Source of the DNA: Proteus vulgaris
GTDB taxonomy: Bacteria; Pseudomonadota; Gammaproteobacteria; Enterobacterales; Enterobacteriaceae
Direction of reading: 5' to 3'
Assembly: GCF_023100685.1 (NCBI RefSeq)
Contig: NZ_CP090064.1
Span: 3,782,001-3,846,000 of the forward strand
DNA length: 64,000 bases
Positions 37,647 to 56,916 of this stretch are shown one piece after another. The translations under genes and the position numbers were made by a program. The notes below the pieces were generated by a model. It was not told the origin of the DNA. It did no database searches and saw only the letters and a program-made list of their open reading frames with translations. How positions within the stretch are numbered: position 1 is the first letter of the stretch; each line of letters starts with the position of its first letter.

Positions 37647-38252
37647 AAATACTACATAAATAATGTTTATAAATCGAGAAACCTATTTCACGCTCACAAT
37701 ATTGATTTTTTCAAAACAAGTGAAAACGTGAACGTCATTAAGATTAAATATATTTACTGTTAATACTTAAATTTATAAAAAATTAATTTAATTTTATATA
37801 ATTAATAATTATATGATTAACAATAAAAAAACAAAATTATTTAACAACCAATTCTATTATGTACATAAAATCCATATTAACTCACACTCTGAAAAGAATG
37901 AAATAAATAAGACATTAATAATAATCACTCTTAATCCATTTATGAGATCTCTCTCTAAAGATAGGAAATTAACTTAGGATTAATAGCATAGAAATGATAG
38001 CATCAAAAATGCTATAAATTAATTATATTATTTATATGGCTTTAATTTAAAAAATTAAAAATTTTTAAATATATTACCTTCAATTTATTAACAAAAAAGA
38101 TAATAACTATCTTCGCTAATAATTATTTAAATGTACTATTTTAAGTTTAAAGTTATAAAAAATATTATTCTATTTCCGTCTAGTTTAAGTTGTTTTTTAT
38201 ACTAGATTGATGGCAACACAACAAAAATACTTTCAATAAAAGTGGGCGTACT
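37647..38252. promoter_or_regulatory. AT-rich region upstream of the AraC-type regulator
   Basis: About 600 bp without a gene on either strand. A TATACT -10-like element at 38198-38203 lies about 50 bp before the regulator start. The -35 region is poor, as would fit an activated or weak promoter. Confidence 0.4.
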
Positions 38253-39218
38253 ATGAAAAGCATGTTTACGACTCGGGAACTCCCTGACGTAGATCGGTTT
38301 TCCGTATTCAGGGATACAATAAAAGACCGCTTTTTATCGTCTTATGAATGCAATGAAGTCGAATTGCCTCCTCATTCTCGATTTTATGCCAATATTGTCG
38401 AGCAGCAGGTGACAAATATGCGCTTTATTCAGTTAGAGTCTAATGGACACTGGGCAAGTAGCCGTCCTTTGAGCCATAAACTGAGCTTAGAAGAACATTT
38501 TCAAATTGAGATACAGCGTTCAGGAACCAGCCATCTAACTCAAGATGGAAGAACGGCATTTCTGCGACAAGGCGACTTTTGTATTTTTGATATGGCAAGA
38601 CCCGTATCCTGGTCTTTTGATAACGACTACTCGTTATTTAAGATCCTTATCCCAAGGGAGAAACTAGCATCACGTTTAGGTAATACCCAAAATCTTACAG
38701 CAAGAGCAATACGCGGTAATAGCATTACCGGCTCTCTCGTTTATAGTTTTGTGATGCGTTATATTCCATTTTTGGATTCAATGCCACCACAACATGCACA
38801 ACAACTTGCTGATATTTTATTGAATTTAATTACTTCAGCCTTTAGCGAATTTAGTATTGCGACACCACCGCAAAGCTTAGGAAGATCAACACTGTTTTAT
38901 TTTGCTCAGCACTATCTTGAGCAACATCTTTCCGATCCCGATTTAAGTGTTAATGAATGTGCTAATGCGTGTGGGATCTCAGTCCGCTATTTACAGATGC
39001 TATTTAAAGAACAAAATACATCTGTACTTCGTTGGATCTACCAAAAGCGTCTTGAGAATTATAAAACAGCGTTAGTTAACCCGCTTTTAGCAGAGAAAAA
39101 TATTACACAACTGGCTTATGAATGTGGGTTTAGTGATATTTCTAATTTAAGCCGAAAATTTAAATCTGAATTTTTTATGACACCTTCAGAGTATCGAAAA
39201 ATACACTCGTTGAGATAA
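38253..39218 (+). CDS. AraC-family transcriptional regulator
   Basis: This 321-residue protein has an N-terminal cupin-like sensing domain of the AraC_binding_2 type (about residues 20-190) and a C-terminal pair of helix-turn-helix motifs: LSVNECANACGISVRYLQMLF around 232-252 and ITQLAYECGFSDISNLSRKF around 285-304. The architecture resembles FeaR-type activators of aromatic or amine catabolism. It is convergent with the 2-hydroxyacyl-CoA dehydratase/Fix operon and is the only regulator near it, so it is the best candidate to control that operon; this is inferred from position only. GTGGG precedes the start. Confidence 0.85.
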   Translation: MKSMFTTRELPDVDRFSVFRDTIKDRFLSSYECNEVELPPHSRFYANIVEQQVTNMRFIQLESNGHWASSRPLSHKLSLEEHFQIEIQRSGTSHLTQDGRTAFLRQGDFCIFDMARPVSWSFDNDYSLFKILIPREKLASRLGNTQNLTARAIRGNSITGSLVYSFVMRYIPFLDSMPPQHAQQLADILLNLITSAFSEFSIATPPQSLGRSTLFYFAQHYLEQHLSDPDLSVNECANACGISVRYLQMLFKEQNTSVLRWIYQKRLENYKTALVNPLLAEKNITQLAYECGFSDISNLSRKFKSEFFMTPSEYRKIHSLR

Positions 39219-39305
39219 GTTATAAAACAAAATTATGGGTTATATAAGTATCATTACAAGCATTATGGTTCGTATATGAATCAATATGTACCCAGAATAC
39301 TTATC

Positions 39306-39343
39306 CCCCTCTAGTTTAAATTTTGGAGGTTACACTAGAGGGG
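39306..39343. terminator. inverted repeat between convergent genes
   Basis: The 10-bp arms CCCCTCTAGT and ACTAGAGGGG are separated by 18 bases, and lie between the regulator gene and fixX of the dehydratase operon. Probably a bidirectional transcription end, though without a clean T-tract on either strand. Confidence 0.5.
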
Positions 39344-39359
39344 AAAAAGATCTATTTCA

Positions 39360-39644
39360 TTAGCCGTAACGAAATTCAATGCCTAGTGTGCCACACGGAT
39401 ATTCCCATTTCTTTAAAATCGTCTCACCACATAACACACGGCAAGTACCACACTCTAAACACCCCGCATAATCAAAAAGATATTGCCCTTTCTCATCTTT
39501 TTTATATAGCCCTGCGGGACAAGCTTTCATTAAGATTTCAAATTGCGCAGGATCGATATCATCCTTTAAGACAATATGCGGATTTTCTTCATCCACATTA
39601 AATTTATTGACGCCTAATTTAACGTCTACGTTTACTTGACTCAT
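39360..39644 (-). CDS. fixX: FixX-like ferredoxin (dehydratase operon copy)
   Basis: This 94-residue ferredoxin-like protein has CPAGLY and CLECGTC, the four Cys that bind one [4Fe-4S] cluster in FixX proteins. It has two further Cys, in RVLCGE and YPCGT, that the carnitine-linked copy (53465-53752) lacks. FixX works with FixC as the quinone-facing arm of the electron-transfer-flavoprotein system. Its ATG overlaps the fixC TGA (ATGA). It is the last gene of the 11-gene dehydratase operon. Confidence 0.88.
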   Translation of the reverse strand: MSQVNVDVKLGVNKFNVDEENPHIVLKDDIDPAQFEILMKACPAGLYKKDEKGQYLFDYAGCLECGTCRVLCGETILKKWEYPCGTLGIEFRYG

Positions 39645-40927
39645 AAAGAACGTACTCCTTTAAAGCCATCTTTAATTAAGTTCATCACACCAACTTTCTT
39701 CACCTGAGACAGTATTTTCTTACGTACTGGTTTTTCTGGGCCATTAATCACGAATAAATCATGCATAACATTGGCCGCCATTTGCGGATAATCCGTAAAG
39801 AATCTGGTGTTATCAAGGAAAGCAGGCAGATCTTTATATAGCTTCATATCTTTCATCACAAAGCTGTCATTTAATAAAGATTGATAACAACTTAATTCTT
39901 TTTGGCTGTAGCTGTTTTGTTCTTTCGCCATTAATACCGCTTTTGCGGCCGCTTCACCTGAAGCAATCGCCAGATCCATCCCTCTTACGGTATAACCCAC
40001 ATTGAGGCAAAAACCAGCTGCATCACCCGCCACTAATACACCATCTCTCACTAATTCAGACACCATATTCATGCCACCTTCTGGCACCATATGGGCTGAA
40101 TATTCTAATAATTTTCCGTCTTTGATAAGCGGTGCAACAACAGGATGTTGTTTAAAATCTTCTAATAATTGAGGAACCGTTTTTTCGAACTTATCGACGT
40201 TATGTAGCCCTAAAACTAGGCCTAAAGAAACGGTATTTTTATTGGTATATAAAAAACCACCACCTAAGTATCCCCCTGATGGTGCGCCCGCAAAAAGCCA
40301 AGCTAACCCTTCATCATTGGTGCAACCAAATCGGTCTTCCATTTGTTGAGGAGTAAATTCAAGTAACTCTTTAACACCAACAGCAACAGTATGAGGATTT
40401 ACTTTTTGCGTCATACCTAATTGCTTCGCTAACAATGAATTAACACCATCAGCTAAAATCACGACATGGGCTTCAATTTCATCATCACCCGCTTTAACGC
40501 CGCATACTTTGCCCTCTTTTACTAATACTTCATCGACACGAACGCCTGTGATCACTTGTGCGCCAACATCTTCCGCTTTTTCCATTAACCACTGATCAAA
40601 TGAAGAACGCAATACAGTATAAGAGCGCGCCGCTTCCTCTTCTTGCTGTGTATGCTGATAATCTAACGTCACGCCATCTGTCGGCGTTAACATTGAGATC
40701 TTTTCACGCGTCACAAGGCGTTCAACTGGGGCTTCTTCGGCAAAGTTAGGAATGATTTTTTCAAGACTATGTGCGTATAAACGCCCACCCGTCATATTTT
40801 TACTGCCAGCGAAATTACCTCGCTCAACCACTAAAACATCACATCCTGCTTGCGCTAAAACATAGGCAGCAGTACCACCAGCAAGTCCACCACCCACAAT
40901 AATGGCGTCAAAAATATCGTCTGACAT
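39641..40927 (-). CDS. fixC: FixC-like flavoprotein, ETF:quinone oxidoreductase type (dehydratase operon copy)
   Basis: This 428-residue flavoprotein begins with an FAD-binding Rossmann motif (VGGGLAGGTAAYVLA, about 10-24, followed by VVERG). Another FAD-binding segment, VLVAGDAAGF, is near residue 300. FixC transfers electrons between FixAB and the quinone pool or ferredoxin. It is paralogous to the FixC at 53749-55041, sharing length, domain order and many motifs such as GGRMYAHTLE-like and TDGL/SGGYLGGGF stretches. It starts 63 bp after fixB, with a 10-bp stem-loop in the gap. Confidence 0.9.
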   Translation of the reverse strand: MSDDIFDAIIVGGGLAGGTAAYVLAQAGCDVLVVERGNFAGSKNMTGGRLYAHSLEKIIPNFAEEAPVERLVTREKISMLTPTDGVTLDYQHTQQEEEAARSYTVLRSSFDQWLMEKAEDVGAQVITGVRVDEVLVKEGKVCGVKAGDDEIEAHVVILADGVNSLLAKQLGMTQKVNPHTVAVGVKELLEFTPQQMEDRFGCTNDEGLAWLFAGAPSGGYLGGGFLYTNKNTVSLGLVLGLHNVDKFEKTVPQLLEDFKQHPVVAPLIKDGKLLEYSAHMVPEGGMNMVSELVRDGVLVAGDAAGFCLNVGYTVRGMDLAIASGEAAAKAVLMAKEQNSYSQKELSCYQSLLNDSFVMKDMKLYKDLPAFLDNTRFFTDYPQMAANVMHDLFVINGPEKPVRKKILSQVKKVGVMNLIKDGFKGVRSL

Positions 40928-40952
40928 ACTTTTCTATCCTTTTATTATGTGT

Positions 40953-40982
40953 GGTCGCTTAGCACACTTTCACTAAGCGACC
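40953..40982 (-). repeat. intercistronic stem-loop between fixB and fixC
   Basis: GGTCGCTTAG and CTAAGCGACC form a perfect 10-bp stem with a 10-base loop and no T-tract. A stem-loop also sits between fixB and fixC in the second fix operon (55067-55088), with a different sequence, suggesting a conserved role in mRNA processing or stoichiometry. Confidence 0.65.
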
Positions 40983-40990
40983 GACGGGGA

Positions 40991-41932
40991 TTAGCCGCCA
41001 AGTTTTGCTGTTAATGCAGGTAACACTTTGTAGAGGTCGCCGACAATCCCGTAATCCACCATATTAAAGATAGGTGCATTTTTATCTTTGTTGATACCAA
41101 CAATAATTTTTGCTCTATCTACACCGACCATATGTTGAATTTGCCCTGAAATACCGACAGCAACATAAACATCAGCACCTAAGGTCACGCCTGAAACACC
41201 AATGTAGCGATCGTGTTCCATCCAGCCTTCACCTTCAGCAATTGGACGTGAGCAACCCACTTCACCTTGAAGGGCTTTTGCTAATGCTGACGCTAACGCA
41301 ATATCATCTGCCTTACCAAAGCCACGTCCAACACCAACAACACAATGCGCTTTACCTAAATCAACGCTACTACCTTGTTTTGGCTTACGTGTTAACACTT
41401 TTAATGTATGCGCAGGGGCGACAAAGGTGCCTTGTACCACTGATGCATTGGGAGCATCTGTAATAACTTCCACATCTAATGCACCACCAACAGTAGCAAT
41501 AGCATAAGGTGAGCGAATTTCTGCTTTAGCATGTGCTAAACCACCATAAACTTGGTGTGTTGCGATCACGGTATTGTTTTCAACAGTCAGACTTAATGCA
41601 TCACTGACAACACCCGCTTTTAACGTAACACCTAGGCGGGCCGCAATGGCTTTTGCTCGTTTTGATGATGCTAATAAAACCAATGCATTAGCACCTGCTT
41701 CTTTAATAATTTCAGCAAAAGAGGCCGCATAATCTTCAGCAATCACACCTTCTTGTGGCGCAAAGCAATAGACACAATCAGCACCAAGGCTGACACATTC
41801 ACGCGTGCTTTCGTCATCACCGATAAATAACACATTCACTTTTTCACCAAGACCACGAGCAAACGCTATCAGCTTTGCTAAATCATCCGCTTTCTCGGCA
41901 TAAACAAAGGTAGTAGGTAGTAAACTAGCCAT
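40991..41932 (-). CDS. fixB: FixB-like ETF alpha subunit (dehydratase operon copy)
   Basis: This 313-residue protein has the C-terminal FAD-binding signature of ETF alpha: [24 protein letters not shown] around 240 and [16 protein letters not shown] [12 protein letters not shown] near 280. With FixA it forms an electron-transfer flavoprotein. In clostridial reductive amino-acid modules the same position (acdB-etfB-etfA) is held by ETF alpha. It lies 11 bp downstream of fixA. Confidence 0.9.
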   Translation of the reverse strand: MASLLPTTFVYAEKADDLAKLIAFARGLGEKVNVLFIGDDESTRECVSLGADCVYCFAPQEGVIAEDYAASFAEIIKEAGANALVLLASSKRAKAIAARLGVTLKAGVVSDALSLTVENNTVIATHQVYGGLAHAKAEIRSPYAIATVGGALDVEVITDAPNASVVQGTFVAPAHTLKVLTRKPKQGSSVDLGKAHCVVGVGRGFGKADDIALASALAKALQGEVGCSRPIAEGEGWMEHDRYIGVSGVTLGADVYVAVGISGQIQHMVGVDRAKIIVGINKDKNAPIFNMVDYGIVGDLYKVLPALTAKLGG

Positions 41933-41943
41933 TTTTAATCTCC

Positions 41944-42720
41944 TTATTGATTAACCGCTTGGCGTAAATGCTCAGCAAATGTGGCAATATTTTCATCTGA
42001 ATCACCTTCTAAAATAATGCCAAGGCGATCAGTCTGTTCTGGTGCGCACACTTGTGTTTGCACGACAGTCAGTGCTGAAATATCAACACCAATATCACCT
42101 AAACCAAGTTTCTCAACAGGTTTTTTATTCGCAGCTAAAATGGCTTTCATTGACGGTAATTTGGGAGTGTTAATGCTTGATGTCACGCAGACAACGGCAG
42201 GTAATGTCAGCTCTAGCTCTTCAGTGATATTTTCTAAATCACGCTCAACAATGATTTTGTCACCATCAACGGTGATTTTGTTAACGGCATTAACACAAGG
42301 TAAGCCTAAGTATTCACCTACTGCTAAACCTGTTTGTTGAGCGTATAAGTCACCAGATCCTTCACCGAAAACTAATAAATCAAAACCCACCTTTTGTGCT
42401 GCTTGCGCAATAATATTGGCGGTATCTGTTGAATAAAGAGCATTGCACGCATCATCAGCAACAAGTGTTAATGCATCAGGGCCACGCGATAAAATATCTT
42501 TTTTAATTTTCGCGTTTTCTACCATTGCACTAGTGCCTACACTAAGCGCAGTTACGGTACTATCACCCAGAGCAGAGGCAATTTCTACTGCGGTTTCAAT
42601 TGCATTTAAATCATATAAACTAATTTTTAAACCCGCATTATCAGTTGCGAGTGTACGATCAGGCCGCGTTGTGATGTCTTGTTCGTCATGAACAACCTTA
42701 CAGCAGGCAATAAGTTTCAT
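41944..42720 (-). CDS. fixA: FixA-like ETF beta subunit (dehydratase operon copy)
   Basis: This 258-residue ETF beta subunit has KVVHDEQDITTRPD at the N-terminus, DLNAIETAVEIA near 37 and the AMP/FAD-binding DLLVFGEGSGD-type loop around 115. It ends within the size range of Fix/ETF beta. It follows the acyl-CoA dehydrogenase gene by 54 bp, and so is the likely redox partner of that enzyme. It is clearly paralogous to FixA at 56048-56821 but diverged over its whole length. Confidence 0.9.
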   Translation of the reverse strand: MKLIACCKVVHDEQDITTRPDRTLATDNAGLKISLYDLNAIETAVEIASALGDSTVTALSVGTSAMVENAKIKKDILSRGPDALTLVADDACNALYSTDTANIIAQAAQKVGFDLLVFGEGSGDLYAQQTGLAVGEYLGLPCVNAVNKITVDGDKIIVERDLENITEELELTLPAVVCVTSSINTPKLPSMKAILAANKKPVEKLGLGDIGVDISALTVVQTQVCAPEQTDRLGIILEGDSDENIATFAEHLRQAVNQ

Positions 42721-42774
42721 AATTCACATTCTCCGTTTTGCTCAAGGGAGCAAATTAATAAAATCCCAATGTCA

Positions 42775-43914
42775 TTACGCTAAAATATGTTTAGCGATCA
42801 CCATGCGTTGCACTTCGCTTGTGCCTTCAAAAATTTCAGTGAGTTTTGCTTCACGCATTAGGCGTTCAACAGGATAAGATTTGGTGTAGCCCATACCACC
42901 GTGGAGTTGAACAGCTTTTTGAGTGACATAGGTTGCTGTTTCAGAAGCGTATAATTTGGCTTGCGCTGATTCGCGGGTATAAGGAAGCCCAGCAATTTTT
43001 GCCGCCGCTGCGCGATACACCAACATACGAGCACAATCTACGCGGGTAGCCATATCCACTAGCATCCATTGCACACCTTGGTTAGCTGCAATAGGTTTTC
43101 CAAATTGAATACGCTCTTTGGTGTAATCAATCGTGGCATCTAATGCACTTTGTGCGATACCTAACGCAATAGCTGAACAGCTTAAACGGCCACCATCTAA
43201 GGTTTCCATGGCAATGCTAAAGCCTTTACCTTCCGCGCCTAAACGTGCACTAACAGGTACAACACAGTCACTAAAACTGACAGAACAAGTTTCAGAGCCA
43301 TTCATACCCATTTTTTCTTCTGGTAAACCAATGCTGATCCCTGGGTTATCACGCTCAACTAAGAATGCGGTGATCCCTTTAACACCCGCACTTTTATCAG
43401 TCATGGCAAATACGATAAAGAATGCACCTTGAGGTGCTGCAGTGATCCACAATTTAGAGCCATTGATCACATAATTATCACCTTGACGAACAGCGGTTGT
43501 TTGTTGAGCAGCAGCATCACAACCCGCACTTGGTTCGGATAAACAGAAGCAACCAATTTGTTCACCTGAAACCACTCCCGGTAAAATACGTGCTTTGGTT
43601 TCTTCATCAGCATATTTTTGAATAACAGGGCCAGTTAATGAACACTGTGATCCCATGATCATCGCGTGTGCAGCGCTGACTTTTGCCATTTCTTCTGTTG
43701 CTAATACATAGCTAATTGCATCCGCTTCTGTTCCACCATAATTTTCATCAATATTGAAACCAAAGAGTCCTAATTCAGCCATAGGTGCAATGCTTTCACT
43801 TGGAAAACGGTGTTCTTTATCAATTTCGCCAGCAATAGGCTTAATATCATTTTCAACAAACTCTCTGACCATATCGCGGATCAGGACTTGTTCTTCTGTT
43901 AGCTGAAAATCCAT
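42775..43914 (-). CDS. acyl-CoA dehydrogenase (enoyl-CoA reductase of the dehydratase pathway)
   Basis: This 379-residue acyl-CoA dehydrogenase has CFCLSEPSAGCDA (about 130) and KLWITAAPQ (about 152) for FAD and substrate binding, and IFEGTSEVQ near residue 366, whose Glu sits at the usual catalytic-base position of short-chain acyl-CoA dehydrogenases. By context it would work as a reductase: the dehydratase makes a 2-enoyl-CoA, and this enzyme with FixAB reduces it, as AcdA/AcdB do with EtfAB in Clostridium. CaiA at 58978-60120 lacks that Glu context (SGGSDEMQ). It starts 54 bp before fixA. Confidence 0.88.
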   Translation of the reverse strand: MDFQLTEEQVLIRDMVREFVENDIKPIAGEIDKEHRFPSESIAPMAELGLFGFNIDENYGGTEADAISYVLATEEMAKVSAAHAMIMGSQCSLTGPVIQKYADEETKARILPGVVSGEQIGCFCLSEPSAGCDAAAQQTTAVRQGDNYVINGSKLWITAAPQGAFFIVFAMTDKSAGVKGITAFLVERDNPGISIGLPEEKMGMNGSETCSVSFSDCVVPVSARLGAEGKGFSIAMETLDGGRLSCSAIALGIAQSALDATIDYTKERIQFGKPIAANQGVQWMLVDMATRVDCARMLVYRAAAAKIAGLPYTRESAQAKLYASETATYVTQKAVQLHGGMGYTKSYPVERLMREAKLTEIFEGTSEVQRMVIAKHILA

Positions 43915-43953
43915 GTTTATTTTCCTCTGTGAATATATAGGGTTATCTCTATG

Positions 43954-43988
43954 GCGTGCGATTTCACGTTTGTCGTCTTATCGCACGC
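43954..43988 (-). repeat. intercistronic stem-loop between permease and dehydrogenase genes
   Basis: GCGTGCGAT and ATCGCACGC form a perfect 9-bp stem with a 17-base loop and no T-tract. It may mark an mRNA processing or stability point in the long operon. Confidence 0.55.
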
Positions 43989-44009
43989 ATTAATGGGTTA
44001 ACGTTATTT

Positions 44010-45329
44010 CTACATCGTCGCTATGGATGCAGGTAAGAAGGTGTACAGCAGCAACATAAACATCATGGCTAACAGTGGAATAGCGAGAGTTAACGTTCCT
44101 ACAGGGCCATAGCCCTCTTTATGGCTGACACCACAAACGCTAAAGACAGTAATAATCAATCCGTTAAATGGTGGAGTTGTACTCATTGATGCCATTGTTG
44201 CCACACGGTGTAAGGAGCCTTGATCAACCACAGTTGCAGGGAACATTGCAGCAATCATTGGCATGGCAATACTTAGCGCACCAGAGCCAGAACCACTGAT
44301 AAACACCAAGGCACCGACTGAAATTGCAGTAACAACAAGTGGATTAAGACCCGATTGAGCAATCGCTTGGAATGATTCTTTGAACGCAGGTAAGGTCATC
44401 ACTAATGCCCCAAACCCAACAATAACCGCCGTATTAAAGAGGGAGGTCACCCCTTCCATTGTTCCTGCGGCTAAATTAGGTACGAGCTTTTTCCAATCGA
44501 GATAGCGTAAATACACAATCAAGGCGGCGATAATGGCGCAGAATAGTGCGATAGCTGGGTCCCATTTCAGGATATTCAGCACGACCAGCAAAATAAGCAT
44601 AGGGAGTAATGCAACGAGCACATTAGGTAATTGACGATCTTTTTTACCTTCTTCGGCTTTTGCTGTTTTTTCGTCTTCAACCCAGCCTTCACCTTTCGCT
44701 TTTACACGCTTAAATAACCAAGTGAGATAAATAATCACTAAGGTGACTTGGAATAATGCTGTCAACATACCCGGTACTAAACCGGCCGTAGCTGACGTAC
44801 CTAAGAACTTCATTGGGATAAGGTTTTGGATTTGTGGTGATCCAGGCATTATCATCACAAACGTACCTGCACCGGCAAAATAGACAGCAGGAATAAGTCT
44901 GCGAGGAAGATTCGCTTTGCGGAATAAACTCACCATCATCGAATAAACGGTAAACAGTGCAACAAACACTGAAACACCGCCGTAGGCTAAAATGGCACAA
45001 GCCGCAACTAATGAAGGAATAACGGCTCTTTCACCAAATTTACCAATAATAAAAGAGGCAACACTATCAGCAGCGCCACTGATAGCGGTTAATTTGCCAA
45101 AAATCGCACCAAGTACGAAAATGAAGAAGAAGCTACCAAAATAACCACCTAATCCACCGGTATACACTTGTAACAGTGCATCGACAGGATTAAGCATATC
45201 TGGTGATACAAGCCATGCAGTCACAGCAAGAAATAGGCTGGTGGTAAAGACAGAAATGAAGATATGTATGCCTTTCATACACATGATCATTAATATCGCT
45301 AGCCCAATGATTAAACAAATAATACCCAT
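44010..45329 (-). CDS. GntP-like proton symporter for hydroxy/carboxylic acids
   Basis: This 439-residue polytopic protein has about 12 membrane segments and a hydrophilic loop (about 207-232, KAKGEGWVEDEKTAKAEEGK). The YGGVSVFVALFTVY and GSGSGALSIAMP segments are typical of the GntP/CitMHS superfamily. GntP-type carriers import gluconate, hydroxybutyrate and related acids with protons. Embedded in an operon for 2-hydroxyacyl-CoA dehydration, it most likely imports the 2-hydroxy- or keto-acid substrate. The real substrate is not readable from sequence. Confidence 0.85.
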   Translation of the reverse strand: MGIICLIIGLAILMIMCMKGIHIFISVFTTSLFLAVTAWLVSPDMLNPVDALLQVYTGGLGGYFGSFFFIFVLGAIFGKLTAISGAADSVASFIIGKFGERAVIPSLVAACAILAYGGVSVFVALFTVYSMMVSLFRKANLPRRLIPAVYFAGAGTFVMIMPGSPQIQNLIPMKFLGTSATAGLVPGMLTALFQVTLVIIYLTWLFKRVKAKGEGWVEDEKTAKAEEGKKDRQLPNVLVALLPMLILLVVLNILKWDPAIALFCAIIAALIVYLRYLDWKKLVPNLAAGTMEGVTSLFNTAVIVGFGALVMTLPAFKESFQAIAQSGLNPLVVTAISVGALVFISGSGSGALSIAMPMIAAMFPATVVDQGSLHRVATMASMSTTPPFNGLIITVFSVCGVSHKEGYGPVGTLTLAIPLLAMMFMLLLYTFLPASIATM

Positions 45330-45409
45330 GATTGCCCCACTTATATGTGTTAGGGTTCAATTGACCTGTGCTATCCACACAGGTCTTTTGTGACTATTGA
45401 TTAATGTTG

Positions 45410-46543
45410 TTAAGCAGAAAGCACATCAGCAAAAGTTTGCAGTGCCGTTCTAGCTTGTTCATACGTTTTAGTTTGCTGATCGATTTCGATAATGATGGAA
45501 GGAATGCCTTCTCTATCGAGGAATTTCTTCACTATCGGGGCATCGAACTCTTCTGGATCACAGAATTTTGTTAGCAAATAGACAACACCATCAGCGCCTG
45601 TGTTTTTCACCATATCGGCAATTAAACGGCCACGTTTTTTCTCTGGATCATATAAAAGTGAACACCCTTCAAGCTGGGCGATTTGCTCTGCCATTGCTTC
45701 ATAAGGTGCGTTATTTTCTGGGATATCTTGACGGAACTGACGAGACTCATGTGCCACTTCATCTGCCACAATCGCTATCTTGTTATCAGCCAAAATTTGT
45801 AGAATAGAAGGGCTATCCGCAATAATGCCTGTCACAACAACTTTGTGCCCTTTCCAAGGTTCTGGAGATAAGGTTTTGCATTGTGCAACAATGGCTTCAA
45901 CGGCTTTTGTATGTTCAACGACATCCATAAAGTAACCACTTTTGATCACAGTATTACGACGTTGTGGTGTGATTAAGTTTGGATGAAGCGCGGCCATCTC
46001 TGAAAATTCGCGTAACGCGGCGCGTCGCTGATTAAACAAATGGATTGCACTTTTTAGTGCATCATCTGTCACAGGCTGACCTGAAATTTCCCCTAATTGC
46101 AGTGCGATTTTTTTGTATTGTTCGGTTAAGAAAGCAATACCCGCTGGGGTTTTACGATTTTGTGGATGCACCAGTTGGATAAAAGGCACTTGTGGCACAC
46201 CGGCTTTCCAGTTTTGCCCTAAGCATTTTAAGGTGTCACACAAAGAAGGAATTATGGCTGCTGACAGTTTATTCAGCGCACCATCCAATCCCATCTCAAG
46301 AGAAGAAAGCACTAGCGCACAATAGAAAGGAGGAAAATATTTCTTCGCTTCTGAGATCTCACGTCCTTCCGCGCCCCAAATGCCAAAAGGCACCATGCCT
46401 GCTGCATAGACAATTTCATTCGGAGTATATTCAGGAAAACAACCAATCACCTTTTTGCCACTACGAATAAAACCCTCTAATTGCGCAACGGGGTTATCCA
46501 CCACGGCTTGCAGCTCATCAAATCTATCCGTTAATGCTTTCAT
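45410..46543 (-). CDS. 2-hydroxyacyl-CoA dehydratase, HadC/FldC-like subunit
   Basis: This 377-residue subunit of a radical 2-hydroxyacyl-CoA dehydratase has IGCFPEYTP (Cys35), PSLCDTLKC (about Cys103 and Cys108) and TKFCDPEEF (about Cys326), the Cys pattern used to bind a [4Fe-4S] cluster. The length agrees with HadC/FldC of clostridia (about 375). Its ATG overlaps the stop of the preceding subunit gene (TAATG), ensuring equal synthesis. The enzyme removes water from an (R)-2-hydroxyacyl-CoA via a ketyl radical and is oxygen-sensitive, so the pathway must be anaerobic. Confidence 0.87.
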   Translation of the reverse strand: MKALTDRFDELQAVVDNPVAQLEGFIRSGKKVIGCFPEYTPNEIVYAAGMVPFGIWGAEGREISEAKKYFPPFYCALVLSSLEMGLDGALNKLSAAIIPSLCDTLKCLGQNWKAGVPQVPFIQLVHPQNRKTPAGIAFLTEQYKKIALQLGEISGQPVTDDALKSAIHLFNQRRAALREFSEMAALHPNLITPQRRNTVIKSGYFMDVVEHTKAVEAIVAQCKTLSPEPWKGHKVVVTGIIADSPSILQILADNKIAIVADEVAHESRQFRQDIPENNAPYEAMAEQIAQLEGCSLLYDPEKKRGRLIADMVKNTGADGVVYLLTKFCDPEEFDAPIVKKFLDREGIPSIIIEIDQQTKTYEQARTALQTFADVLSA

Positions 46544-47784
46544 TAGATGTCTCCCTTTTTCATATCTGCTTTATTCGCAGCCATAATTTCTGTTAATGCT
46601 TCAACACGGGTGACATACTGCGCTTCAGAGAAAACTCGGGGATCTGCTTGGTCGCCATCAAAAGTCACTGTTGGGATCTTAAGTTCATGGCGAATCCGGC
46701 GCTCAATTTCGGGCATAATGCCACTCCAGAGCTTACAACTGCGGTTAACGTGAATAATCGCGCCATCCACTTTATTCTGACGACTAACGTCAATACGCAT
46801 ATCAGCAGCACGCTCAACAGAGACACAGTTAGGAACATAAGAGTAAGCACGCATCATCTCGTCACTGTTTTGATAAATCACACCAAATGCAGTGGCGTAA
46901 ACAGTAGCGGTAACGTTAATACCTTGCTCTTTTAACGGGGTAGATGTGGCACGCAAATAAGGCCAGCAAGCAATACCTTCAAAGAGAACACGGTATTTTT
47001 CTTCACCGCGGTAAGTCGATTTTTTCTCTTTGATATTTTGTTCCATCTCTTCACACAGTTGCTCAAAAGCCAGTGCAGCTTCTAATTTACCGCGAGCACA
47101 AACAGCAACCGCCATGTGATTAAACAGATCAAAACCATTCATTGGAGACGGCTCAAATTGGCAATATTCTGCCGCTTTTAACCATGCACGCCCTGTACGT
47201 TGTGAGATTTCACAGACTTCTTTAAACTTCTCTTCGGAGAAGACTTTGCCAGTGACTTTTTCAAGTTGTTTAATCGCATCATCAAATTGTGCTTGAACAT
47301 ACTTCACTGTCACATCATCAGTGTCATAATCATTTTTATAAGGAATATCGATAAGGATCATCGGGATATTCAATTCGTATGCGATATTTTCATACCACTT
47401 GATCATGCAGTTACAGATATTGTTACAGCACAGCAAGAAATCAGGCTGAGGCATATCCATCTCTTCACACTGCTTAATATCCATGTAAGAGAGGCTGATT
47501 CGAGCATAAGCACAGATATCATTGGAATATCCCATGCTTTCTGCATGCTCACACATTTTTAAACCTGCACCTTTTGCCGCAATGGCTGCGGCTTGGTTTT
47601 CAGGATAAACCACGCATAAACCTAATGTTTCAGCAATTTCTTGTGGGAAGTTAGAGGCACACCAGCCTATTTTTTCACCGCTATTTTTAGCATCCCACGC
47701 ACGCTGATAAGCATCAGCAGCGATTTTTTGCAGTCGTTTTTTCGCAGGAATATAATCCGGCGCATTCATATCTACATTGCTCAT
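46543..47784 (-). CDS. 2-hydroxyacyl-CoA dehydratase, HadB/FldB-like subunit
   Basis: This 413-residue partner subunit of the dehydratase has Cys42 in IGWCASNFPQ, a dense cluster CCNNICNC around residues 118-124, and NRSCKLWSG near 347, matching the family pattern for [4Fe-4S] binding. The length agrees with HadB/FldB (about 410). It overlaps the activator gene upstream (ATGA) and the second subunit downstream (TAATG), so the three proteins are translationally coupled. E. coli YjiM is a distant orphan relative; here the complete pathway context is present. Confidence 0.88.
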   Translation of the reverse strand: MSNVDMNAPDYIPAKKRLQKIAADAYQRAWDAKNSGEKIGWCASNFPQEIAETLGLCVVYPENQAAAIAAKGAGLKMCEHAESMGYSNDICAYARISLSYMDIKQCEEMDMPQPDFLLCCNNICNCMIKWYENIAYELNIPMILIDIPYKNDYDTDDVTVKYVQAQFDDAIKQLEKVTGKVFSEEKFKEVCEISQRTGRAWLKAAEYCQFEPSPMNGFDLFNHMAVAVCARGKLEAALAFEQLCEEMEQNIKEKKSTYRGEEKYRVLFEGIACWPYLRATSTPLKEQGINVTATVYATAFGVIYQNSDEMMRAYSYVPNCVSVERAADMRIDVSRQNKVDGAIIHVNRSCKLWSGIMPEIERRIRHELKIPTVTFDGDQADPRVFSEAQYVTRVEALTEIMAANKADMKKGDI

Positions 47785-48608
47785 TTTGATGTTCCTATTG
47801 TTAACGCATCGTCTTCCAGTTGATGGCGGTACGCTTCAAAGGCATAAATGGCGGCACCTATCGCCCCGTTGTATTGTGATAAAGGTGAAGTGGCGATAGA
47901 GGCGTTCAACTCTTCGCTAACATAACGAACAACTTCAAAATTACTGGCAACACCGCCTGTCATCACGACAGGGGCTTCAACCCCCACTCGTTTTGCAAGA
48001 CCAGCAATACGGCTAGCCACAGAACGGTGAATGCCATTAATAACGTCGGGTATTGTTTCGTTATTCGCGAGATGAGAAATCACTTCTGATTCAGAGAACA
48101 CGGTACAGGTTGAGCTAATCGTGACTTTCTTAGTGGACTTAGCGCCCTCTTGAGCGAGGTCAGAAATCTTGGTTTCTAATACTCTCGACATTACATCTAA
48201 AAAGCGTCCTGTACCGGCGGCGCATTTGTCATTCATCACAAAGTTTAATAAACGGCCTGCACCATCCATATGAAGTGCTTTAACGTCTTGACCGCCGATA
48301 TCAATCACTGTTTTTACGCCCGGAAAAAGAAAGTGCGCGCCTTTGGCGTGACAGCTCAGTTCGCTCACTTCTTTATTGGCTTCTTTCAGAGAATTACGGC
48401 CATAACCGGTTGCACAGATCCAACTGATCTGACTGAGATCGCCACCAAACTGGCTTAATACTTCAGCGATCGCTTTTTCAGGCCCAGAAGTTCCTGCACC
48501 CACAGATGCCAGTGATTTAGCGACAATGGCGTCACCATTTTTCATGATGATGCATTTTGATGCAGACGATCCGATATCAACGCCCATTGTGAAAATGTCT
48601 TGTTGCAT
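47781..48608 (-). CDS. 2-hydroxyacyl-CoA dehydratase activator (HadI/FldI/HgdC-like ATPase)
   Basis: This 275-residue member of the BcrA/BadF activator family has an actin-like ATPase fold with GVDIGSSASKC at the N-terminus and VIDIGGQDVK near 106. Two cluster-binding Cys lie in NDKCAAGTGR (about 130) and SSTCTVFSESE (about 165). The homodimer holds one [4Fe-4S] cluster and uses ATP to inject a high-energy electron into the dehydratase. Its own electron donor must be a low-potential ferredoxin or flavodoxin. AGGAGAG lies 8 bases before the ATG, and the stop overlaps the next gene. Confidence 0.92.
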   Translation of the reverse strand: MQQDIFTMGVDIGSSASKCIIMKNGDAIVAKSLASVGAGTSGPEKAIAEVLSQFGGDLSQISWICATGYGRNSLKEANKEVSELSCHAKGAHFLFPGVKTVIDIGGQDVKALHMDGAGRLLNFVMNDKCAAGTGRFLDVMSRVLETKISDLAQEGAKSTKKVTISSTCTVFSESEVISHLANNETIPDVINGIHRSVASRIAGLAKRVGVEAPVVMTGGVASNFEVVRYVSEELNASIATSPLSQYNGAIGAAIYAFEAYRHQLEDDALTIGTSK

Positions 48609-48644
48609 GCCTTTGCTCTCCTGAAAATTAAAAAAATAAGTGGA

Positions 48645-49880
48645 TTATTCTTTCCACGTCATCACGTCTTTATTGGCTTCAAGGCTGGCAATTTCTTCTG
48701 CGCTATACCCTAATTCAGCTAATACAGACGGTGTGTCTTCACCTAACAAAGGACCACGACGATATTCAGGTAAACCACTCTCTAAGAAATCAATAGGTGG
48801 GCGAACTAAGGCTTTTTCACTGCCATTTTTGTACTTCATGTTGTAGAAGGTGTTGATTGCCCAAGCCTGTTTGTCTTCCAACACTTCTTCCCATGTTTGC
48901 GCAATACTGAATGGGATATCGTTTTTGGTGAAAATATCTGCCCATTCTGATGCTGTTTTTTGCTCAACTTGTTGCCAAATCAGATCATATAATTCAGGGG
49001 AGCGATTATTTTTCGCTACTTCTTGTAGACGTGTATAACGAGCGTCTTCCGCTAAATCTGGACGACCAATACAAGAAATAAAGGTTGGATAGTAGGCGTC
49101 ATAAACAGGCATACAGACTTGAATAAAACGGTCATCTTTTGTTTTATAAGCCAGAATAAATGGGCTAGTAGTATTACGACGATCGATTGGATACGGCTGA
49201 CCATAATCTGGGTATTGTGCCGCTTGGATCATGATTGCTTGGGTATAAATTGAGGTATGCAGTAAGTTAGTTGAAACATACTCACCTTGCCCAATATCTT
49301 TAGCGCGAATATAAGCAGCTAACACACCAGACACTAAACCTAATGCACATTGGTGATCACCAAGGCCAGGGATCACATTCATCGGTACTGTGCCTTTTTG
49401 GTACAGCGAACCTAAAATGCCACCACGAGCAAAGAATGCCGTGTAGTCAAATCCAGGTAGATCTTTATCTGGGCCTTCATCACCATAGCCGGTCACGCTG
49501 GCGTAAACTAATTTTGGAAAACGTTGTTTTAACGTTTCATAATCCAACCCTGCACGTTCTCTTGCACCAGGACGCCAGTTAGTTAAGAAAATGTCGGCTT
49601 TTTCTAGCAGTTCAAACAGAATTTTTTTACCTGCTTCTGTTTTCGTATTTAACACGATGCCACGTTTATTGGCATTTTCTAAATCAAAACTGGTGTTTTC
49701 ATGTTGATCTAACGGACGGCCTTCAGTCGGTGCGGTATAACGTAAGTTATCACCACTTGGGGATTCAATTTTGATTACGTTCGCCCCCATATCAGCTAAA
49801 ATACGGCCCGCTGCGGGTACGGCAATAAAGGTCGCCAACTCAACTACAGTGACGCCTTCCAGTGCTTTACGACTTGTCAT
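48645..49880 (-). CDS. type III (CaiB/BaiF) CoA-transferase, HadA/FldA-like
   Basis: This 411-residue family III CoA-transferase has ELATFIAVPAAGRILADMGA near residue 14 and VKI-type NVIKIE near 35, and probably carries its catalytic Asp in GLGDHQ near 175. In clostridia the homologue at this place (HadA, FldA) moves CoA from the final acyl-CoA or enoyl-CoA product to the incoming 2-hydroxyacid, so CoA is recycled without further ATP. It lies 36 bp upstream of the activator gene. It is clearly different from CaiB (60188-61408), so it has its own substrate. Confidence 0.88.
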   Translation of the reverse strand: MTSRKALEGVTVVELATFIAVPAAGRILADMGANVIKIESPSGDNLRYTAPTEGRPLDQHENTSFDLENANKRGIVLNTKTEAGKKILFELLEKADIFLTNWRPGARERAGLDYETLKQRFPKLVYASVTGYGDEGPDKDLPGFDYTAFFARGGILGSLYQKGTVPMNVIPGLGDHQCALGLVSGVLAAYIRAKDIGQGEYVSTNLLHTSIYTQAIMIQAAQYPDYGQPYPIDRRNTTSPFILAYKTKDDRFIQVCMPVYDAYYPTFISCIGRPDLAEDARYTRLQEVAKNNRSPELYDLIWQQVEQKTASEWADIFTKNDIPFSIAQTWEEVLEDKQAWAINTFYNMKYKNGSEKALVRPPIDFLESGLPEYRRGPLLGEDTPSVLAELGYSAEEIASLEANKDVMTWKE

Positions 49881-49946
49881 TTTTTCTCCTAATTATTTTT
49901 AGACTTCATACTGCTGTTGTCAGAATGTGGATAAATCCGTTGTCAC

Positions 49947-51584
49947 TTAACCCGCTACTTTGGTTTCTTCATCCTTGATTGAAACGCCATAACCCAATTG
50001 CAATTTCAGGGCTTGCACATCAATTTTTCCGCAAGGGGTATGAGGAAACTGCGTAAAGAAATGGAGTTCTTTGGGGATTTTGTAGCGAGCTAGTCGCTCT
50101 TGTAGAAATACACGTAATTCGCTTTCATTTAGGGTGCAATCTTTTTGCACACAAATAGTGGCAATGACTTCCTCACCTAAATCGACAGAAGGAATGCCGA
50201 ACGCTTTCGTTGCGTCAACACCGGGATATTCCGCAATAGCCTCTTCTATTTCACAAAGGCTGATATTTTCACCACCACGAACGACAATCTCTTTCATGCG
50301 ATAGGCGTAGTGATAATTTCCTTGTTCATCGACATAACCAATATCCCCTGTATGTAACCAACCTTCCTCGTCTAGAGCTTCCTTGGTTTTATCAGGGGCA
50401 TTGTCATAACCCATCATCACATGAAAACCACGAGTACAAATTTCACCCAAAACGCCCACTGGCACAGGTTTACCCGTTTTCGGACTAATGATTTGCATTT
50501 CAACAAAAGGTAATGGTTTACCGATAGAACTGCGTTTTATGGGTAAAGTATCGTTTGGTAATGTTTGAGTACAACAAGGCGAGGCTTCTGTTTGTCCATA
50601 AGAGACGGTGATCCCTTTCATTCCTAACGTATTTTCAATGTCATCAATTAACACAGGAGGAAAACTTGCCCCGGCAATAATGCCTTTATCAAGGCTAGAT
50701 AAATCGTAGTGAGAAAACTGCTCGTGCTTCATTAAACGGCTAAAAATCGTTGGTACGCCATGCATAACGGTGCAACGATAGTCTTGGACGACTTTCAAAA
50801 CATCTTCTGCACAATAGTTATCAAGAAGAACTAATTGGCATCCGGTTGTTAACGCAAAAAAGAGACAAGAAGAGAGCCCAAAACAGTGGAATAAAGGAAC
50901 AGCAAGACAAATGACATCGTTATGCGTTACGCCTAATCGCTGTGCTGACAGCATGGCATTATTAATCACATTATATTGGCTTAACATGACACCTTTAGGC
51001 ATAGCAGTACTGCCTGAGGTCATTTGAATAGTCAGTAAATCTTTTACACTAACTTGTGAAATAGCATGTTGATATTCTTTATCTGATATTTTTTGGCTAA
51101 TTGCTTTTAATTGAGATAATGAGACACTTTTTTCTGCCGATTTATTTCCCATACTAATAAATAACTGAGGTAATACATCCTTATTTTCAGTTACTTTTTT
51201 AGCAAGGCAATTAATCACTTCAATAAAGTCATTACTTTTAAACCCATCAGAAAAACATAATGCTTTAATACCGGTTAATCGACATAAATCTAATAACTCT
51301 CTTTTTTTAAAATGAAAGTTAATACAAACAACAGGAACACCAATTTGAGCAGCCGCAAGAAAACAAATTATCCACTCTTTACTATTAGCAGACCAAATAC
51401 CTAAACGATCACCTTTTTTTAAACCAATCGCTAAAAAACCACGCGCAACACTTTCTACTTCTTGTTGTAATTGTTGCCAAGAAAGTGTCTTTTTACTTTG
51501 GTTTTCAATCAAGGCTGTTTGTGAAGCATATTGCTTTACAATATTGTTTAGACATTCTTTAACTGTCATTTCTAATAAGGTCAT
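49947..51584 (-). CDS. AMP-forming acyl-CoA ligase
   Basis: This 545-residue adenylate-forming enzyme has P-loop TSGSTAMPKGV near residue 190, YGQTEASP near 345, the GEICTRGFHVMMGY segment near 395, GWLHTGDIGYVDEQGN near 418 and a C-terminal PCGKIDVQAL with the catalytic Lys. It is the first gene of the dehydratase operon (AGGT 7 bases before the ATG). By analogy with CaiC it would prime the cycle by making the first CoA thioester, after which the CoA-transferase keeps it going. Acid specificity cannot be read. Confidence 0.88.
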   Translation of the reverse strand: MTLLEMTVKECLNNIVKQYASQTALIENQSKKTLSWQQLQQEVESVARGFLAIGLKKGDRLGIWSANSKEWIICFLAAAQIGVPVVCINFHFKKRELLDLCRLTGIKALCFSDGFKSNDFIEVINCLAKKVTENKDVLPQLFISMGNKSAEKSVSLSQLKAISQKISDKEYQHAISQVSVKDLLTIQMTSGSTAMPKGVMLSQYNVINNAMLSAQRLGVTHNDVICLAVPLFHCFGLSSCLFFALTTGCQLVLLDNYCAEDVLKVVQDYRCTVMHGVPTIFSRLMKHEQFSHYDLSSLDKGIIAGASFPPVLIDDIENTLGMKGITVSYGQTEASPCCTQTLPNDTLPIKRSSIGKPLPFVEMQIISPKTGKPVPVGVLGEICTRGFHVMMGYDNAPDKTKEALDEEGWLHTGDIGYVDEQGNYHYAYRMKEIVVRGGENISLCEIEEAIAEYPGVDATKAFGIPSVDLGEEVIATICVQKDCTLNESELRVFLQERLARYKIPKELHFFTQFPHTPCGKIDVQALKLQLGYGVSIKDEETKVAG

Positions 51585-51825
51585 AAATACCTACTCAACC
51601 GCTTTTTTGCTGGTGTTTGCGTCTGTAATGACCTTATTCTGGGTAGGGGGAATTATTCATTCTTGGTAAATAACGAACTGTTTTTCGTCATTTGAATAGT
51701 ATGAGAGAGATCTGTGATTGGGGTCTAGATTTGATGAGTTAAATATAATTTGTAATTGAAGATGAATTAATAACAATGAAATAAATTTGAAACCAAGGCG
51801 TTATAAAGGTGTTATTTTTAAAAAT
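51585..51825 (-). promoter_or_regulatory. promoter region of the dehydratase/Fix operon
   Basis: These 240 bp, between the yaaU terminator and the ligase gene, must carry the promoter of the 11-gene operon. I find no perfect FNR box; a short CGAA…TTCG inverted motif near 51669-51682 is the only symmetry. An AraC-type regulator would be expected to bind here. Confidence 0.4.
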
Positions 51826-51877
51826 AAAAAGGAGAGTCATTTTATTTAAATAATAAAAATAAAATCACTCTCTCTTT
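51826..51877 (-). terminator. terminator of the fixABCX-yaaU operon
   Basis: A long imperfect stem (AAAGGAGAGTCATTTTATTT against AAATAAAATCACTCTCTCTTT) is followed on the minus strand by TTTTTATTTTT. It lies about 180 bp beyond the yaaU-like stop and separates the two minus-strand operons. Confidence 0.75.
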
Positions 51878-52055
51878 AATATAAATAGTCTCATCTCTCT
51901 TTAAGGTATAAATAAATCTTATCAATAATCATTGGTGTGATAATTTAAATTAAAATAATATAAAAATAAATACAATAATGATTAAAATTTATAACATCTA
52001 AATAAAAAACGTTTTAAATTACTTAACTTATTTTCTTGCTTATCAATTAAAGATG

Positions 52056-53378
52056 TTATTTACCTCGTCTCATTGGCATGGTTGAAGTCTGATTAAGCGT
52101 TAATCCTTTGGTTTCTGGCGCAAACAACACAGAAACTATCATGCCGAATAAAGAAATTGCGGCCCCCACTAACATCGTCGTATTAATCCCGTAAGTGGCA
52201 ATAAAGGCAGGAAGCGCACAAGTTGAAATAACCGTACCAATACGGCTTATTGACATAATGACACCAACTGCCGATGCACGAATATCGGTTGGGAACAATT
52301 CATTAGGATAAAGCCATTGTAAAATTCCGGGGCCACCAGAAAAGAAGGCATAAGTCGCAAAGGCTAAGATAACAAATAAGATAGGTAAATCTGGGAAAAC
52401 CCCTAGCACTAATAATGCCAATGTCATCATGGCAAAACTACCAATCAATAACGGACGTCGCCCTGTTTGATTTAACCAAAACATAGCAGGAATACATCCA
52501 AACATGAAGAATAGGCTAATCACCACATTACCCAGTGCCGCACTCCTTCCCGCATCCCATCCTAATAAACCGACAATCTGAGGTCCAAAGGTATAAATGG
52601 CAAACATCGGAATAACTTGGCAAGTCCAAATGACCGCAACAAAAAGCACGAAAGAAAAATGACGTTTATTAAATAGCTCGATAAAACGCGTTGTTTTGGC
52701 ATTTTCAGCTTCAAAAACGACAGGTTCACCAAAAAGCTTTATCATCATTTCATTACACTCTTGAATACGCCCTTTGCGTATTAGCCAAAGCGGGGATTCA
52801 GGTAAATCAAAGCGACCAATTAAAATAATAACGCAAGGAATAAAAGCACTGCCCAACATCCAGCGCCAGCCATCTGCAACATCATATAAAAGATAACCGA
52901 CTAAGTTGGCACATGTTGCCCCGATATACCACATTGCGGCAATAAAACCGACAGCAAAAGCACGTTGTTTTTTATTGGAAAACTCCGTGATCATTGACGT
53001 CGCAATGGGGTAATCAGCACCAATCACAATTCCAATAAGGAATCGCATCACCAATAGACCCACTGGTGTTGACACAAACATCGTTGCAATCGAAATAAGC
53101 CCAATAGCCACAATATCAACGAGGAACATTTTGCGACGACCCACTTTGTCACAAATATAACCAAAAAGTGATGTGCCAATAAAAAGCCCTGCTAATGTTG
53201 CCGCACCAAGCAGCCCAATCCATCGTGTATCAAGCTGTAATAACGGTGTGAGTTGCTCTAATGCCACACCGATGATCACTAATACATAGCCATCAAGAAA
53301 AGGGCCACCACTCCCCCATAACATCACCCGACGATGTACAGAGGTAAAACGAATATCATCAAAGTTTCTGGGTTGCAT
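52056..53378 (-). CDS. yaaU: MFS transporter YaaU-like
   Basis: This 440-residue major facilitator has about 12 membrane segments. The sugar-porter style motif GYICDKVGRRKMF lies between helices 2 and 3 (about 70-82), and DLPESPLWLIRKGR follows helix 6. It lies downstream of fixX, as yaaU does after fixABCX in E. coli, and has the same length. The substrate is not established. A strong terminator between it and fixX (53424-53449) suggests reduced or independent expression. Confidence 0.88.
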   Translation of the reverse strand: MQPRNFDDIRFTSVHRRVMLWGSGGPFLDGYVLVIIGVALEQLTPLLQLDTRWIGLLGAATLAGLFIGTSLFGYICDKVGRRKMFLVDIVAIGLISIATMFVSTPVGLLVMRFLIGIVIGADYPIATSMITEFSNKKQRAFAVGFIAAMWYIGATCANLVGYLLYDVADGWRWMLGSAFIPCVIILIGRFDLPESPLWLIRKGRIQECNEMMIKLFGEPVVFEAENAKTTRFIELFNKRHFSFVLFVAVIWTCQVIPMFAIYTFGPQIVGLLGWDAGRSAALGNVVISLFFMFGCIPAMFWLNQTGRRPLLIGSFAMMTLALLVLGVFPDLPILFVILAFATYAFFSGGPGILQWLYPNELFPTDIRASAVGVIMSISRIGTVISTCALPAFIATYGINTTMLVGAAISLFGMIVSVLFAPETKGLTLNQTSTMPMRRGK

Positions 53379-53423
53379 GACTGCGTCCTGGTATTTTTTC
53401 TAAATAAAGCAAAAAAAGAAAAG

Positions 53424-53449
53424 CTCCCAGGCCGGAGCAGCGCTGGGAG
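53424..53449 (-). terminator. terminator after fixX (carnitine-linked copy)
   Basis: The stem CTCCCAG/CTGGGAG has a GC-rich 12-base loop and is followed on the minus strand by CTTTTCTTTTTTTG. This is a textbook intrinsic terminator between fixX and the yaaU-like gene. Confidence 0.88.
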
Positions 53450-53464
53450 AAAAGTAGCGATACA

Positions 53465-55041: not shown

Positions 55042-55066
55042 AACATCTCCAGAATTTGCGATAAAT

Positions 55067-55088
55067 GCAGAGAAGTCACCTTCTCTGC
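55067..55088 (-). repeat. intercistronic stem-loop between fixB and fixC (carnitine-linked copy)
   Basis: GCAGAGAAG and CTTCTCTGC form a perfect 9-bp stem with a 4-base loop in the 56-bp fixB-fixC gap, without a T-tract. It mirrors the stem-loop at 40953-40982 in position but not in sequence. Confidence 0.65.
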
Positions 55089-55097
55089 TTAAATAAA

Positions 55098-56036: not shown

Positions 56037-56047
56037 AACTCCCCCTA

Positions 56048-56821: not shown

Positions 56822-56916
56822 TACATCTCCTGAAATTAATAAATAATGTCATTTACTCTGGCAATGTAATATAGAATTAACATAATTAAGTGATTAAAAA
56901 ATTAAACCTAGGTCAC

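Follow-up and report, generated by a model that had tools for sequence, protein, structure and literature searches.

In C. difficile, leucine is reduced to isocaproate through an operon with the gene order hadAIBC-acdB-etfBA (PMC6384274). Descriptions of radical 2-hydroxyacyl-coenzyme A (CoA) dehydratases come from strict anaerobes, and the enzymes show extreme sensitivity to oxygen (PMC8473912). Here, we characterize an operon in Proteus vulgaris that encodes a putative dehydratase system of this kind together with its own electron-transferring flavoprotein (ETF) and FixCX proteins. It lies in a stretch of 64,000 nucleotides (the window) that spans positions 3782001-3846000 of a genome assembled as a single contig of 4.39 Mb. 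The operon is a real and conserved unit with intact motifs, present or absent as a whole. On balance, we favor the view that it would act as a self-contained 12-gene module that reduces (R)-2-hydroxyacids anaerobically to the saturated acids, supplied with electrons by quinol and without bifurcation.

Compared with the C. difficile operon, the CoA-transferase, activator, two dehydratase subunits, acyl-CoA dehydrogenase and ETF are shared in the same relative order. The Proteus operon adds a ligase, a permease and FixCX and has no ldhA in the block; its ETF is enteric and lacks known bifurcation motifs, and its HadB- and HadC-like proteins score under the NCBIfam cut-offs. The caiTABCDE and fixABCX genes of E. 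coli and Proteus (carnitine to gamma-butyrobetaine), which serve an external electron acceptor, share a transporter, a ligase, a type III CoA-transferase, an acyl-CoA dehydrogenase and FixABCX. Where cai has the CaiD hydratase, however, the Proteus operon has a radical 2-hydroxyacyl dehydratase, and its FixABCX forms a separate lineage (45-61% identity, 70% for the short FixX). With 25-28% identity its enzymes are not orthologues of CaiA, CaiB and CaiC; the true cai genes nearby encode proteins 73-92% identical to these E. coli proteins. The E. coli ydiF-ydiO-ydiQRST-fadK set with ydiP shares ETF/FixCX paralogues of 46-68% identity, a ligase, an acyl-CoA dehydrogenase and a nearby AraC-type gene but has no dehydratase or activator, and similarity is low for YdiO (31%) and YdiP (23% over 109 residues). 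Lastly, HgdCAB of Fusobacterium vincentii (locus L026), so named from the CoA-transferase subunit and decarboxylase-like gene in its neighbourhood, has a similar activator and subunit 1 but differs in subunit 2 and gene context.

Gene content and conservation

Eleven open reading frames on the minus strand (39360..51584) could each be assigned to a family by Pfam or NCBIfam (Table 1). Their transcription order is ligase, CoA-transferase, activator, dehydratase subunits 1 and 2, permease, acyl-CoA dehydrogenase, ETF beta, ETF alpha, FixC and FixX, in agreement with a first-pass annotation of the window, which had also likened the order to hadAIBC-acdB-etfBA. That annotation omitted one member of the unit, the convergent AraC-family gene. 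It further described the genes as translationally coupled, which holds for the hadI/hadB, hadB/hadC and fixC/fixX overlaps (3 of 10 junctions) and one gap of 11 bp but not for the remainder.

By tblastn of the window genes against related loci, the block is conserved in the same order in 14 loci, comprising nine named Proteus contigs, a P. mirabilis record (L027), Leminorella grimontii, a contig labelled Serratia marcescens, Symbiopectobacterium and Brenneria roseae; an 8.2-kb Escherichia albertii contig carries a partial block from lig to acd. The AraC/FeaR-like gene is linked to the block in 14 of these 15 loci, the E. albertii contig being the fifteenth. It is convergent at the operon 3' end in Proteus and Leminorella and divergent, upstream of the ligase gene, in the Serratia-labelled contig, Symbiopectobacterium and Brenneria. 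At subunit 1, named Proteus loci show 98-100% identity, which places the window genome in this genus. In terms of frequency, 18 of 20 Proteus genomes and 9 of 392 genomes of a family sample (4 of 154 genera) have the module. Reading frames are largely undisturbed: 11 of 12 gene sets are free of internal stops in the orthologues found, and hadI of locus L014 has one internal stop with 12 residues beyond it.

Beyond these loci, E. coli gave no blastn match for subunit 1 and no megablast match for the operon (20,395 records), although megablast would overlook copies under about 85% identity. No intermediates were seen in a Pseudomonadota sample of 398 genomes, where the own genome scored 505 bits and the next best 171; in the order sample (394 genomes), the single good match was the own genome, and two others scored about 20 bits. 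Some database labels deserve caution. The Serratia marcescens-labelled contig (L023) groups with the genus of Symbiopectobacterium NZEC151, so that its label looks wrong, and the PLSDB 'plasmids' NZ_CP084075.1 (L026, 2.1 Mb) and NZ_OL790811.1/NZ_OL790812.1 (L027, 4.1 Mb) look like misfiled chromosomes.

Dehydratase system and substrate

The cysteines that the first-pass annotation had described as cluster-binding are present and conserved in the activator and both subunits. The activator motifs NDKCAAGTG and STCTVF, D[IL]CAYAR and NRSCK of subunit 1 and CDTLKCLGQN and KFCDPEE of subunit 2 were found in 16/16 proteins, and the NNICN cysteine of subunit 1 in the six sequences aligned. The longer motif LLCCNNICN is exact in 14 of 16; its second Cys, not an expected ligand, is Ser in the other two. 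The HadBC structure indicates which of these cysteines are ligands. Three such cysteines in each HGD-D subunit, together with the activator motifs, characterize the proteins as an (R)-2-hydroxyacyl-CoA dehydratase system by sequence, for which radical dehydration itself is predicted.

The best solved structures are 3o3m_A for subunit 1 and 3o3m_B for subunit 2. Both subunits are 50% identical to their C. difficile counterparts, HadB and HadC, but fall short of the curated models for 2-hydroxyisocaproyl-CoA dehydratase (HadBC proper), subunit 1 with 505 bits against a cut-off of 750 (NF052455) and subunit 2 with 483 against 700 (NF052456). Assignment to HgdAB is not supported either, judged by the single reference from F. 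vincentii: there, the activator is 58% and subunit 1 53-54% identical, whereas subunit 2 is only 39% identical and the operon protein keeps three cysteines that the F. vincentii HgdB lacks. Subunit 1 is hence no closer to HadB (50%) than to the hydroxyglutaryl-CoA dehydratase subunit (53%), while subunit 2 is closer to HadC (50% vs 39%). A search for clostridial reference dehydratases via viral contigs returned 195 pattern matches, none of which was confirmed.

An orphan dehydratase-like protein was considered and rejected. PF06050 has two matches in the window genome, both of them these subunits, and a HadB profile matched none of 14 control genomes including E. coli, where PF06050 does match a protein that we take to be YjiM. 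The block moreover supplies complete pathway partners. Acd is far from its enteric counterparts (E. coli YdiO 31%, CaiA 25%). Outside Proteus, its five best matches in the plasmid collection belong to Fusobacteriota or Firmicutes and are 50-53% identical, and its best solved structure is 5ol2_C (417.5 bits). The dehydratase half of the operon is clostridial in kinship, and the operon as a whole is a mosaic of this half and an enteric FixABCX.

Sequence leaves the choice between branched, aromatic and short hydroxyacids undecided, and a link to the amino-acid deamination of Proteus, as drawn in the first-pass annotation, can only be inferred. A short or polar substrate (lactate, 2-hydroxybutyrate or another of the acrylate type) instead of a Leu- or Phe-derived one is a tentative option that would be compatible with quinol-supplied reduction. 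The GntP permease points in this direction, as substrates of this family are small polar hydroxyacids. So does Acd, for which the acryloyl-CoA reductase model (NF042972, AcrC) is the best, with 476 bits, though under its cut-off of 640, and subunit 1, being no closer to HadB than to HgdA, adds to it. Against a short substrate, the type III CoA-transferase is of the HadA/FldA kind while lactate pathways use another transferase class, the FeaR-like regulator hints at aromatics by a weak match, and model scores give no specificity. A conceivable supplier of the (R)-hydroxyacid is the 2-hydroxycarboxylate-viologen oxidoreductase of Proteus, possibly YdhV, which did not come up in the literature consulted. 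At 730-749 kb, the window genome has an operon resembling ydhYVWXUT (L041:5396-11440), which encodes a molybdoenzyme of the YdhV type (class V WOR). The YdhV-type gene is found in the window genome and 7 of 8 further genomes, and since one of these has no module, YdhV gives no specific link to it.

Proposed pathway and its direction

In the pathway that we propose, the GntP-like permease would allow hydroxyacid entry or exchange and the ligase would make one acyl-CoA, priming a cycle in which the type III CoA-transferase hands CoA from product to substrate. HadI would use ATP to fire one electron into HadBC, which would remove water by a ketyl-radical mechanism, and Acd would then reduce the resulting enoyl-CoA. 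EtfBA-FixCX would draw the electrons for Acd from menaquinol without bifurcating them, as may also be the case for carnitine and the cai genes, and the FeaR-like AraC protein may sense the substrate or a related compound. The direction of flux, the quinol donor and the roles of permease and regulator are the parts of this scheme that we infer. Of the function originally suggested, anaerobic 2-hydroxyacid reduction, the complete and conserved HadAIBC-Acd-type gene set with its motifs stands, while the low-potential role given to FixABCX is not supported.

The same enzymes could also run oxidatively, with an imported acid being activated, oxidised by Acd with electrons passing to quinone via EtfBA-FixCX, hydrated by HadBC and exported as a 2-hydroxyacid. 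FixCX resembles a split ETF:quinone oxidoreductase, an enzyme that works oxidatively in other organisms, the dehydratase reaction is reversible in principle and an ATP-dependent ligase suits assimilation. We nevertheless regard this direction as unlikely, as the described clostridial operons and pathways are reductive (PMC8473912, PMC6384274), an oxygen-sensitive radical enzyme confines the module to anoxic conditions (PMC8473912) and the module contains no further catabolic gene for the hydroxyacid.

Electron supply

In EtfABCX of T. maritima, bifurcation strictly requires the Arg of the RPxFGG motif, and group 2 also conserves RxGV and GxxSPTxV (PMC10734219). Across the window and 14 orthologues (n = 15), RPxFGG is absent from all large subunits, with His at the Arg position as in E. 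coli FixB and YdiR, and GxxSPTxV is absent from all small subunits. RxGV was never found at its place; one protein (L019) has it elsewhere, near the C-terminus. FixX keeps CPAG and CxxCxxCxxxC in 15/15 but lacks in alignment the N-terminal Cys set of T. maritima EtfX (7koe_D), which has two sets. None of the three features of a bifurcating group-2 ETF, namely the Arg, the motif pair and the two FixX Cys sets, is thus present.

Instead, closest homology and the identical order etfB-etfA-fixC-fixX place the proteins with enteric FixABCX/YdiQRST. The small subunit has human ETF as its best solved match (77.6 bits), and FixC passes PF21162, the ubiquinone-binding domain of ETF:quinone oxidoreductase (33.6 bits, cut-off 27.7), as does the cai FixC. 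At 44-61% identity to both E. coli sets (FixABCX and YdiQRST; 68-70% for the short FixX), the operon FixABCX is a third enteric lineage about equidistant from the two. These values rule out a tandem duplication of the adjacent cai fixABCX, which is also opposed by the module occurring without cai genes in the available flanks of other genera; cai or fix neighbours are found in Proteus only and in none of the four other loci (flanks of up to about 6 kb upstream).

It is improbable in our estimate that EtfBA-FixCX bifurcates in a reductive Stickland operon of the clostridial style, with NADH-driven reduction of enoyl-CoA or quinone also yielding reduced ferredoxin or flavodoxin for HadI. Precedents exist in the bifurcating acyl-CoA dehydrogenase of the C. 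difficile operon (PMC6384274) and the bifurcating FixABCX of A. vinelandii (PMC5861303). A low-potential source would also be needed, because the window genome has no match to TIGR02176, the pyruvate:ferredoxin/flavodoxin oxidoreductase model, and the operon holds no gene for a HadI electron donor. The missing motifs, the single FixX Cys set and an ETF of the enteric Fix/Ydi kind (45-52%) speak against bifurcation, however, and leave the proposal of FixABCX as low-potential electron source unsupported. The demand is also small: as the dehydratase performs at least 1000 turnovers per ATP, HadI needs low-potential electrons just catalytically (PMC8473912). RnfC is present in the window genome (591 bits, cut-off passed), which would make Rnf a candidate source for HadI.

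Electron flow from menaquinol to enoyl-CoA is feasible given potentials of -74 mV for menaquinone (PMC10734219) and -10 mV for crotonyl-CoA/butyryl-CoA (PMC5861303). The sequences agree better with a quinol-linked sink, like the one proposed for carnitine reduction, than with low-potential supply by FixABCX; the presumed route runs from menaquinol through FixCX and ETF to Acd. A broader interpretation, to which we give slightly less than even weight, is that facultative Enterobacterales carry out quinol-driven anaerobic 2-hydroxyacid respiration, in which the third enteric FixABCX would have replaced the bifurcating ETF of a clostridial radical dehydratase pathway, energy would be conserved via the respiratory chain and not ferredoxin, and the 12-gene unit would be exchanged between species.

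Several points weigh against quinol-supplied reduction. To our knowledge, the electron donor of enteric FixABCX is not settled, and the oxidative direction could operate. For the large subunit, the solved structure with the highest score is CarE (118 bits, vs 103 for human ETF), which belongs to a bifurcating complex and also speaks for the bifurcating alternative. The Arg is present in 5/5 aligned large subunits from bifurcating complexes, the only kind that this comparison covered, and each of the five ETF groups has some members with the RPxFGG Arg (PMC10734219). Dehydratase references comprised one HadBC and one HgdAB named by context. The GntP and FeaR resemblances are weak. Anaerobic control is unsupported, as neither FNR-like (91 vs 77 expected) nor CRP-like sites (19 vs 34) occurred beyond chance.

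Empty site and possible exchange of the unit

Genome G397 has an empty site whose boundaries define the unit as the AraC gene plus the 11 operon genes (Table 1). Its flanks are 99.5-99.7% identical to those of the module-bearing P. mirabilis H110, in which the unit measures 14,207 bp with a 7-bp direct repeat at both ends (L027:7741-7747 and 21955-21961). The repeat is single in G397 (L050:16307-16313), where the alignments of both H110 flanks share 7 bases. This would be expected from clean insertion or from deletion between short repeats; the like position of the module in other Proteus species tentatively favors loss. A second Proteus genome without the module, G082, has no close yaaU relative (23%) and no AraC gene.

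Between H110 and loci L014, L016 and L018, nucleotide identities of the module genes have medians of 92-93%, whereas the flanking yaaU, fixC1 and fixB1 reach 79-87%; the short fixX1 (89-92%) lies within the module range. Against the window and six other loci, medians for the module genes are 85-92%. In two pairs without P. mirabilis (L012 and L019, each vs the window), divergence is about the same in module and flanks. These identities, from a P. mirabilis sample of two records with and one without the module, suggest module exchange between Proteus species. Gain of the H110 module by exchange through its flanks was not borne out, as these are nearly identical to the empty site up to the junction.

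The surroundings of the unit show features of their own. In two Proteus species, a gene pair for an AAA ATPase and a partner lies between yaaU and the ligase gene (L012:3800-5701 and L014:3803-5711); the L012 pair matches the PADLOC candidate defence pair PDC-M25A/B (510 and 260 bits). On its outer side, the empty site has a conserved border, formed by a gene for a 1644-residue DUF3686 ATPase (32669-37603). Within the operon, an 8-pair stem followed by T on the plus strand (45363-45385, between hadC and the permease gene) is a possible processing or attenuation site. An Rfam scan gave no match. A terminator scan (26 vs 13.7 expected) found none between fixX and araC.

Table 1. Features of the module and its surroundings, in window coordinates.
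Feature	Position (strand)	Length	Model scores and identities
Acyl-CoA ligase (AMP-forming)	49947..51584 (-)	545 residues	PF00501 284.7 bits
Type III CoA-transferase (HadA/FldA/CaiB kind)	48645..49880 (-)	411 residues	PF02515 295.4 bits; CaiB 25%
Acyl-CoA dehydratase activator (HadI/HgdC kind)	47781..48608 (-)	275 residues	TIGR00241 258.3 bits, cut-off 125.4 passed
2-Hydroxyacyl-CoA dehydratase subunit 1 (HadB-like)	46543..47784 (-)	413 residues	PF06050 249.1 bits
2-Hydroxyacyl-CoA dehydratase subunit 2 (HadC-like)	45410..46543 (-)	377 residues	PF06050 285.9 bits
GntP-family permease	44010..45329 (-)	439 residues	PF02447 49.5 bits, cut-off 22.5 passed
Acyl-CoA dehydrogenase (Acd), proposed enoyl-CoA reductase	42775..43914 (-)	379 residues	
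ETF beta (FixA/YdiQ-like)	41944..42720 (-)	258 residues	PRK03359 291 bits, cut-off 219 passed; YdiQ and FixA 51-52%
ETF alpha (FixB/YdiR-like)	40991..41932 (-)	313 residues	FixB and YdiR 45-46%
FixC/YdiS-like ETF:quinone oxidoreductase flavoprotein	39641..40927 (-)	428 residues	PRK10015 635 bits, cut-off 466 passed
FixX/YdiT-like ferredoxin, one [4Fe-4S] Cys set	39360..39644 (-)	94 residues	PRK15449 155 bits, cut-off 166
AraC/FeaR-like regulator	38253..39218 (+)	321 residues	PF14525 and PF12833; FeaR model 138.7 bits, under cut-off 199
Stretch unaligned in the empty site of G397	37684..52039	ca. 14.4 kb	Flanks align to 37683 and from 52040
Neighbours outside the module: yaaU and fixXCBA (-), caiTABCD (+)	52056..63901		

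Two further scores complement Table 1. The best NCBIfam model of the ligase is PRK12583 (488 bits, under the cut-off of 832), with 28% identity to E. coli CaiC and 27% to FadK, and the permease scores 34.4 bits with TIGR00791, far under its cut-off of 292.75.

Conclusions

The novelty of the operon is a new combination of known parts, and the mostly open-access literature that we consulted yielded no description of such an operon in Proteus. With a complete and conserved operon of this kind in a facultative genus of the gut and urinary tract, some Enterobacterales would have a reductive metabolism credited to clostridia. The operon would also allow a natural comparison of two ways, bifurcating and quinone-linked, of feeding one and the same enoyl-CoA reduction, and the existence of near-identical genomes with and without the unit makes its predicted function testable.

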